DNA from: Paraglaciecola arctica BSs20135
GTDB taxonomy: Bacteria > Pseudomonadota > Gammaproteobacteria > Enterobacterales > Alteromonadaceae
Direction of reading: 5' to 3'
Assembly (NCBI RefSeq): GCF_000314995.1
Contig: NZ_BAEO01000009.1
Location: 1-64,000 of the forward strand
DNA length: 64,000 bases
Made by a program: the position numbers and the translations under genes. Position 1 is the stretch's first letter; every line of letters begins with the position of its first letter. The notes under the pieces were generated by a model. It did not search any database and had not been told where the DNA came from. It saw nothing but the letters and a program-made list of their open reading frames with translations. This document shows positions 1 to 1,932 of this stretch, in pieces.

Positions 1-152
1 AACCGCTCTTCAACCCATCCACGGCGATGTTCATAACTCTGGCCTGAATAACTATCCACACCGCACAAAAAAGAGCGCCGTACACAACGGGAAACACAAT
101 GGTAATAAGGAGTATCCGATAAACAAATTTGACTGCTACGTGGCTGGGGCAT
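1..152 (-). CDS. REP-associated-type (Y1/IS200-like) transposase, N-terminal part, runs off the window
   Basis: A reading frame opens at ATG 152 and stays open to base 1, giving 50 residues. The N-terminus carries the pattern DTPYYHCVSRCVRRSFLCG followed by YSGQSYEHRRGWVEER. This is the typical start of the roughly 320-residue Y1-type HUH transposases related to REP-associated tyrosine transposases. The His-hydrophobic-His motif and catalytic Tyr would lie outside the window. An AAAGGA ribosome-binding site sits about 10 bases before the ATG. The upstream DNA carries a 25-bp repeat array, an arrangement expected for this class. Completeness of the gene cannot be judged here. Confidence 0.75.
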   Translation of the reverse strand, partial: MPQPRSSQICLSDTPYYHCVSRCVRRSFLCGVDSYSGQSYEHRRGWVEER

Positions 153-213
153 GACATCAATCCTTTGATTTATTTCCTATTCAAAGCCTAGCTTGTCTTT
201 TTATTTAGTCAAA

Positions 214-330
214 TTGTTATGGGTGGCTTGGTAAACTTCTTGGTAAACTCTGTAAACTTTGTTATGGGTGGCTTGGTAAACTTTTGTTATGGGTGGCTTG
301 GTAAACTTGCTCTTGGTAAACCTGGTAAAC
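214..330. repeat. 25-bp direct-repeat array with interspersed GGTAAAC fragments
   Basis: A 25-bp unit containing TTATGGGTGGCTTGGTAAAC occurs at 214-238, 259-283 and 284-308. The last two are exactly tandem. The intervals are filled by shortened pieces of the unit: CTTGGTAAAC at about 239-248, TGTAAAC at 251-257, and CTTGGTAAACCTGGTAAAC at 312-330. The array lies between the transposase start and the acyltransferase stop and has no coding potential of note. It is most simply the cognate repeat of the adjacent Y1-type transposase, which is inference from position. Confidence 0.8.
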
Positions 331-344
331 CATCCCACAGTTTT

Positions 345-1148
345 TTATCCATGATTTAATGTGAGGCGTATGTGTTTCAACATTAATTTGATGCCTGGCG
401 AGAGGTTTTCCATCAGTAATTCAGGGTTGATATAATACGGAGCTCTTTTGCCGTGGTATTCGATTACAGGGCCGATTTGTTCAAATTCTATACCAATGAA
501 CTTCATGCTGCGTGCAAGTCTGGGCTCCATCATCACAAAAGTATGTTTTATTTGATTCTCCATTACTAATGAAGCAGCAGATAAATAAAGCCCAATCGCA
601 ATAAAGGGGAAACATCTTAGTTCGTTTACAGAATAAGTATGTTGATTGATAACCCCAGTTGATGCGCCACTATATTTATCCATTTTACGACGCCTAAATT
701 CATTTGGAACAGCCAAGCGTGATATCTCACAAATCTCATGAGGTTTAAAATCATTAGGGTTTATTTTTCCAGGGGAAATAGAGTTTAAGCAGTACTTTTG
801 AATCGGTATAGTTTGACCGTTGGTTTCTGGCCTTACAACTCTGACTGTCCCTGCATAGTTGTGAGTGGGTAAATGCTGTATGAGGCAGTGAAACGAATAA
901 TCATCAAAGTCATCTTTTTCGATTTTAGCTGGATTTTCTGCTTCAAATTTTAATTCTTCGCAATAAACACCATGGCGAATACGGTAAGCTTCGTCTTTAA
1001 GTAAAGGACTGGTGGCCAAAACAGGTGAAAGGTAAGTTGCAAAATGTCGGGATACCGTTTTAAGTTCATTATTAACCGCAATATTCATTACTTTTTTTAT
1101 TAGCGGGCCAATTATGGGTTTATTGGAATATTTTTTTAAATTTTTCAC
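345..1148 (-). CDS. PEP-CTERM/exosortase system-associated acyltransferase (GNAT fold)
   Basis: The 267-residue protein matches the N-acyltransferase family linked to PEP-CTERM/exosortase systems. Markers are the segment with YRIRHGVYCEELKFE at about residues 55-69, an acidic FDDYSFHCLI segment, an AGTVRVVRP strand and EISRLAVP followed by a basic FRRRK stretch. Related proteins resemble acyl-homoserine-lactone synthases in fold; the acyl acceptor is unknown. The start shown is GTG and overlaps the stop of an upstream relic (GTGA). ATG at 1088 is an alternative, because the first 20 residues are basic and not typical of the family. No exosortase or PEP-CTERM substrate is visible here, so its partners are elsewhere or lost. 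Confidence 0.8.
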   Translation of the reverse strand: MKNLKKYSNKPIIGPLIKKVMNIAVNNELKTVSRHFATYLSPVLATSPLLKDEAYRIRHGVYCEELKFEAENPAKIEKDDFDDYSFHCLIQHLPTHNYAGTVRVVRPETNGQTIPIQKYCLNSISPGKINPNDFKPHEICEISRLAVPNEFRRRKMDKYSGASTGVINQHTYSVNELRCFPFIAIGLYLSAASLVMENQIKHTFVMMEPRLARSMKFIGIEFEQIGPVIEYHGKRAPYYINPELLMENLSPGIKLMLKHIRLTLNHG

Positions 1149-1390: not shown

Positions 1391-1932
1391 TGCACTAAGG
1401 GTAACCAACTTTATTTGAATGCTTTGCCTGTTACTTGGTCGCTTTTTAATCTGAAGTGCCAGTTAATAAAGACACCCAATCACAGTCTAATCAACAAGCA
1501 TAAAGTGATGGGTATATTCCTCTATGGGGTTTTAAGAAATAAGATATTCAGGCCGATTGGGGATTTGGCTTATTAATGCAACTAAATGATTCAGCCAATT
1601 CAAATTTTAGACAACGCTATTGAGCACAGGTTGTGCTGGTAGCTTTGAAAGTGTGTGCGCTGAGTTTAGGCCGCTCTATAATAGGGCTGTTATGATGCTC
1701 TATGTAACCAGCTTTATCTTGTCGAATACAACGGCTGGATTTAGCAAAACAGTCATAAACGTAAATATCGCCTTTATTGGTCCAAGAAACTCCAGGCTTT
1801 CTACTACAGCCCAATTCTAAAAATAAAGCAGTTTAAAGACCTATTACATGCCGAAATCAGGATGTACCTAATAGCCGTATCTTTGCACTTGCATGTTAAA
1901 CAGACAGCATACTTCAGCGCTATATACAGAGC
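1391..1932. other. Non-coding or decayed DNA
   Basis: About 540 bases between the patatin relic and the LytTR regulator. Short overlapping frames exist on both strands at about 1617-1820, but none has a recognisable family, ribosome-binding site or neighbour that would support it. The stretch follows the decayed patatin gene and is probably more eroded accessory DNA. Nothing specific is recognised in it. Confidence 0.4.

Follow-up and report, generated by a model that had tools for sequence, protein, structure and literature searches.

IS200/IS605 elements such as IS608 and ISDra2 rely on Y1 chemistry and end in palindromes, not in terminal inverted repeats, and we know of no end arrays in this family. 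The element described here encodes a transposase of similar predicted fold, flanked by inverted ends without a consensus hairpin in place of the palindromic (hairpin) ends by which the family is recognised. The HUH/Y1 fold is also predicted to be shared with the E. coli TnpA_REP protein (4er8) associated with BIMEs. The accessible text on TnpA_REP describes GTAG-tagged hairpins, a gene that is mostly single-copy and no mobility evidence, and it notes that REPs might be disseminated by replication primed from the 3' end that the TnpA_REP cut produces (PMC8266576). In contrast, the present gene occurs in many copies between inverted ends and is flanked, instead of by the GTAG-tagged hairpin REPs that mark RAYT/REP systems, by an unrelated motif with no consensus hairpin.

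Two features are already known: tandem REP and REPIN clusters that include flanking sequence, and Y1 genes between inverted ends. According to the available part of Bertels and Rainey (2011, PMC3116915), REPIN clusters consist of tandem units taking in flanking sequence, as do the arrays reported below, and a second cluster-forming mechanism was inferred for them; their units are whole hairpin-forming REPINs, whereas ours are end fragments cut at varied positions. The TIRtrons (TIRYT) of the Di Nocera group (2013, PMC3733652) carry a Y1 gene between REP-unrelated inverted ends, and TIR dimers and clusters are common among them, as here. Their usual, not universal, motif is GGGGWSAS, whereas that of the present element is GACACCCA, which departs from it, and the accessible portion of that paper describes neither unit start nor joint type nor truncation pattern. 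The TnpA_Y1 subclass 2.3 of Quentin et al. (2018, PMC6006769) comprises proteins of about 325 aa with HuH, WE and YVDLNP motifs, found in Alteromonadales in multiple copies and without REP hairpins, all features seen here. Recent spreading was inferred for this subclass and no REP-like structures were reported, and the sections of that paper at hand do not describe end sequences, inverted ends or arrays, all of which are present in our material. A literature search with little subscription coverage returned no description of the unit anatomy, or of the ends, miniature elements or arrays of subclass 2.3.

The window, a stretch of 64,000 nucleotides of Paraglaciecola arctica BSs20135 DNA, opens with a locus of this kind (Table 1). 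Since window base 1 is also base 1 of contig C64, the transposase gene is cut by the assembly; its frame is open toward the left edge (translation of 3–152, minus strand: MPQPRSSQICLSDTPYYHCVSRCVRRSFLCGVDSYSGQSYEHRRGWVEER), and complete copies elsewhere in the genome encode the whole protein of 326 aa. The original prediction had read this region as a transposase start of 50 codons next to three 25-bp repeats and their fragments, and this was confirmed: the residues that it quoted lie in the translation, the three identical 25-mers occupy 214–238, 259–283 and 284–308, and fragments lie at 238–257 and 311–330. Its proposals that the unit belongs to the Y1 transposase and recurs in the genome also held. 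Related units adjoin related transposases in other genomes, and with at most one mismatch GGGTGGCTTGGTAAAC is found at 27 places in the 5.96-Mb genome versus 0 for the reversed pattern, a recurrence beyond chance; TTTAYCWAGCCACC, at the same tolerance, is found at 68 places versus 8 for its reversed control. The idea that had to be given up was that of a stand-alone REP-like repeat with an identity of its own, since the 25-mer is one of a series of truncated left-end copies, measuring 12, 9, 24, 25, 15 and 9 nt from the inside outwards, and its length reflects the point where copies happened to stop. A stand-alone 25-bp repeat family was rejected because unit lengths vary while the units start at nearly one point.

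Table 1. Features at the start of the window (positions in the window).
Feature	Position	Strand	Remark
Y1/HUH transposase start, first 50 codons	3..152	(-)	TnpA_Y1 subclass-2.3-like; remainder lost at contig end
Subterminal left-end region, between conserved end motif and start codon	153..218	(-)	Judged from sequence; core-to-ATG distance mostly 69–90 nt in relatives
Innermost, complete left end, GTTTACCAA followed by GCCACCCAT	219..236	(-)	Core GCCACCCAT at 227..219
Array unit 1, GTTTACCAAGAA, truncated end copy	237..248	(-)	
Array unit 2, GTTTACAGA, short and imperfect	249..257	(-)	
Array unit 3, GTTTACCAAGCCACCCATAACAAA	258..281	(-)	
Array unit 4, GTTTACCAAGCCACCCATAACAAAA	282..306	(-)	
Array unit 5, GTTTACCAAGAGCAA	307..321	(-)	
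Array unit 6, outermost, GTTTACCAG	322..330	(-)	14 nt between this unit and the stop codon of the neighbouring gene
Host gene beside the element: PEP-CTERM/exosortase system-associated acyltransferase	345..1148	(-)	TIGR03694

The host gene scored 249 bits against TIGR03694 (cut-off 112), the residues scanned being those from 348–1085. Further along, window 1464–1478 (plus strand) carries TAATAAAGACACCCA, an end motif standing alone, which may be left over from another element; the sequence after the motif recurs behind similar motifs at C5:95278–95336. The ends of contigs C4, C10, C11, C13, C36, C46, C55 and C64 fall in or beside element copies, so the element probably causes assembly breaks.

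The window's genome contains 12 near-identical transposase starts (94–100% identity, two of them within one array at C61) and one more at 76%, and the gene was detected at E <= 1e-60 in 20 of 22 genomes of the genus; of 511 relatives in the genome-collection scan the best 80 were kept, with Paraglaciecola sequences ranking highest. Judged by its length (326 aa versus a subclass median of 325 aa) and its HuH, WE and YVDLNP motifs, the protein fits TnpA_Y1 subclass 2.3. WE and YVDLNP are present around the catalytic tyrosine as W162 E163 and Y183–P188, and the HuH motif reads NHVH, differing at its third residue from the NHYH of the Quentin 2018 table. H71, H73, W162, Y183, N187 and P188 were invariant across 117 distinct relatives. 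The profile matches stayed under threshold for both Pfam Y1_Tnp (20.9 bits, cut-off 23) and NCBIfam NF047646 REP_Tyr_transpos (38.8 bits, cut-off 80). An AlphaFold2 model (mean pLDDT 88, pTM 0.89) gave as its best Foldseek match the E. coli REP-associated tyrosine transposase 4er8 (E 4e-4), the sole match below 0.001. The alignment of 4er8 with the model reached Z 11.4 at 3.2 Å over 157 residues, the next match having Z 6.6; Thg1-type folds in the VIA-align list, at Z about 6, fell far under 4er8.

The element measures ~1.25 kb and consists of the transposase gene between inverted ends TWANNARGACACCCA, the end in the window being TTTACCAAGCCACCCA; the ends lie about 80 nt upstream of the start codon and about 200 nt downstream of the stop. 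Our collected set held 156 genes or gene starts at 145 loci, duplicates in the 150 nt upstream of the start codon having been removed. Of the 156, 137 have a core, for example GACACCC or GCCACCC, 50–135 nt upstream of the start codon, mostly at 69–90 nt, and the inverted motif was found 60–450 nt after the stop in 77 complete genes and absent from that interval in 40 others. Left and right ends (137 and 65, the latter at 150–260 nt) share the logo TWANNARGACACCCAT..TAA, which carries little information beyond -8. RNAalifold returned no consensus secondary structure for 45 left and 40 right ends, a weak negative given the diversity of the alignment, which agrees with the original prediction that the usual REP hairpin is missing.

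The element edge probably lies ~9 nt outside the core, with high-identity support from one locus. This locus, L225 in G009, interrupts an IS gene of which an intact copy exists elsewhere (98.5%); the native IS DNA can be followed up to 9 nt from the core, and 2 nt of it are included in the array unit. Six more flank comparisons, most of which are across species, are compatible with an edge at 15 nt (L227, L237, L122), 12 nt (L218 and the right end of L009) or 10 nt (L214); that of L010 allows 20 nt and that of L240 gave no edge. Target duplication by complete elements was considered and rejected. The direct repeats flanking 65 complete elements were no longer than those of shuffled pairings (mean 4.18 versus 4.07, sd 0.12), so no target-site duplication is seen, and 7–8 nt direct repeats are single cases (L072, L077, L096, L100). 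No clean empty site was obtained; at L225, the locus with an intact IS to compare, a match to that IS was not found next to the right end. In Pseudoalteromonas, an older empty site (L281 versus L273/L274) places the insertion, by eye, just past the T-run of a terminator and is too diverged to fix the edge. At L239 (G009:C1:3988271) the element lies between two partial copies of an IS gene, presumably IS4-type, in inverted orientation, and its flanks read outward from nearby points of that same IS.

The arrays follow one plan at left and right ends alike: a tag, the 9–13 nt before the core, starting at or close to the element edge, is repeated outward, each time with a piece of the element end of differing length, the units running inward for 0 to hundreds of nt. 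The 9-mer tag was copied further out at 55 of 137 left ends and 36 of 77 right ends. Arrays within 250 nt were present at 52 of 136 left ends versus 0.29 expected from shuffled flanks, and at 35 of 76 right ends versus 0.19. Where this tag recurs, homology to the left stopped at 9–13 nt in most pairs (101 of 115 for left ends, 71 of 77 for right ends); these pairs are not independent, some loci being counted twice. The 9-nt floor was set by the search key, whereas the drop past 13 nt was not. To the right, homology in the same pairs extended for 0 to 220 nt. When the anchors were shifted as a control, outer copies appeared in 10–16 of 136–137 cases and the left boundaries were scattered over up to 85 nt.

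Comparison of adjacent units gave the same picture of narrow starts and varied ends. Among 162 pairs spaced by at most 120 nt, sharing to the left had a median of 11 nt (quartiles 10–13), the 8-nt search key fixing its lower limit and not its upper one, and sharing to the right a median of 7.5 nt (quartiles 2–14, maximum 94); a further 23 of 185 pairs were spaced by more than 120 nt. Clean joints were seen in 86 of the 162 pairs and show no microhomology above chance, the overlaps of 0, 1, 2 and 3 nt numbering 52, 18, 14 and 2 against about 47, 25, 10 and 3 by chance. The remaining pairs comprise 36 with 1–12 nt of unexplained filler, 21 deviating further, 10 overlapping too much and the rest intermediate; many joints are thus not simple. 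Clean units of at most 20 nt make up 76 of the 86, a count that covers spacings up to 120 nt only.

No cut sequence is visible at the unit starts, which vary between loci. The commonest fragment lengths at joints over all loci are 2 and 6 nt (ending in GA and GACACC), as if copying halted at preferred points. Purine-rich tract tags, e.g. AAAAAAGAAA, are seen at left ends in G004 and G009 (L211, L225, L232, L235, L237) and at L169, unlike the tag of the window's genome, TTTACCAA. By local GC skew the tag lay on the G-rich strand in 11 of 15 stretches (those, out of 20, with the array mainly at one end), a bias that is not significant and is confounded by genome.

The origin of the array fragments was traced for 28 fragments of at least 22 nt in genomes with several copies. 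Outside the window's genome, the adjacent element was the closest source for 18 of 19 fragments and tied for the other, with 13 of the 19 at 95–100% identity to it, so most units there were made from the neighbouring end. Within the window's genome, where the copies are very alike, the adjacent copy was closest for 2 of 9 fragments and tied for 2, and another copy was slightly closer for 5; trans events or later conversion are possible there.

Arrays at either end, counted for genes of at least 200 aa, also occur in closed or near-closed genomes of one or two contigs (G004, 2/5; G009, 6/16; G011, 3/4; G013, 3/5; G014, 5/7). Among drafts they were found at 9/9 genes in the window's genome (G000), 3/10 in G005 and 5/10 in other genomes of the genus, and the collection scan gave 20/60. 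They are found in many marine bacteria from about ten genera, including Paraglaciecola, Colwellia, Alteromonas, Marinomonas, Shewanella, Ferrimonas, Thalassolituus, Oceanobacter and Parathalassolituus, and arrays were seen by eye in Pseudoalteromonas plasmid records. The pattern TWANNARGMCACCCA is present at 65, 10, 55, 7 and 12 places in G000, G009, G011, G013 and G014, whereas its reversed control is present at 2, 0, 3, 3 and 0. G011 has nine miniature elements, each about 75 bp long and with the element's inverted ends, in which the outer nine nt are conserved, AATTAACAA or AATTATAAA preceding the core by eye, and the sequence beyond differs; some contain the same tandem units (L285, L287). 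These REPIN-like elements (L285–L289) lie at G011:C1 4528000–4555500, 2003460 and 4274303, 7 of the 9 within one 26-kb stretch, and the window's genome has a shorter one, L290 at C22:143502 (about 58 bp), whose inverted ends are the same.

Subclass-2.1-like Y1 genes had been chosen as a negative control. Repeats of at least 13 nt were found in 4 of 11 of their upstream and 3 of 10 of their downstream flanks, the corresponding counts for subclass 2.3 being 45 of 115 and 53 of 114. Their end motif, GGGGTCAGA, fits the TIRtron GGGGWSAS as given in the available text of PMC3733652, and of 21 loci with their elements, 6 had unit pairs, 20 in all, 8 of which overlap by 0–2 nt. These genes show the same arrays, and therefore the arrays are not specific to subclass 2.3 and the set is no clean negative. 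The loci with tag and GGGGTCAGA arrays are L310, L314, L316, L317, L321 and L322, of which L317 belongs to the window's genome (C22:94176).

We consider it an even chance that the arrays are truncated end copies made in place by transposase nicking, inward extension and rejoining. The transposase would read the same motif at either end and nick the strand running from the tag to GACACCC at or just outside the element edge, remaining attached to the 5' side of the nick. A polymerase would lengthen the 3' end inward across the element end, displacing the old strand, as at the start of a copy-out. Synthesis would abort early, usually within about 20 nt, and the transposase would then ligate its held 5' end onto the extended 3' end. 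The product would be the flank followed by tag plus fragment and then by tag plus complete end, and repeats of the reaction would build the array, one unit per aborted event. Such a reaction would be expected to give narrow starts, varied ends, chance-level joints, a largely local origin and symmetry between the two inverted ends, and from these features we infer the nicking, extension and rejoining, with the transposase as the agent. Against it stand the joints that are not simple, the 5 of 9 own-genome fragments nearer another copy and an edge drawn from one high-identity locus. Known HUH enzymes also differ from the present case, in which unit starts differ between loci without a visible cut sequence.

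Separate insertions of truncated elements at one spot, with a roughly 12-bp target-site duplication serving as the tag, would leave a tag-fragment-tag trace, and tandem complete and partial elements do exist (L010, L020, L194). Such insertions would also accommodate the own-genome fragments that are nearer another copy; however, the closeness of 18 of 19 fragments elsewhere to the adjacent copy, and flanking direct repeats of complete elements that do not exceed shuffled pairings, make this explanation unlikely. Chance-level overlaps at clean joints speak against replication slippage or microhomology-mediated repair at fragile ends, which would produce tandem duplications without a transposase and which we regard as slightly less likely still. 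Slippage suits units that are small and tandem, and the purine-run tags (such as AAAGAAA repeats at left ends in G004 and G009) look prone to it, yet it does not predict starts 9–13 nt outside the core combined with free inward ends at both inverted ends. A fixed start, a free end, homology-free joints and local origin would equally result if an edge nick became a break on one sister chromosome and was joined unequally to a random inner break on the other. This route requires two breaks and end joining and predicts long fragments to be as frequent as short ones, whereas short clean units prevail as given above, and we hold it to be a shade more improbable again. Finally, an assembly artefact at repeat-rich contig ends might be suspected, since the window starts at one such end and copies of the element contain several others; the arrays inside contigs and in G004, G009, G011, G013 and G014 show that they are no assembly effect, which leaves this explanation barely credible.

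Under nicking, extension and rejoining, we would guess that a full-length copying run copies the element out, which would amount to replicative transposition. A broader reading, to which we lean less than to its contrary, is that the arrays are fossils of aborted Y1 copy-out, that inverted-end Y1 elements are replicative and that the same reaction makes clusters of the REP, BIME and REPIN type. The dissemination of REP-type repeats is called unresolved in the accessible text of PMC3116915 and PMC8266576. The arrays may be a readable trace, in which each unit marks where the reaction began and where it stopped, and the element supplies, unlike most TnpA_REP genes, a multi-copy Y1 transposase in several genomes together with its own miniature elements.
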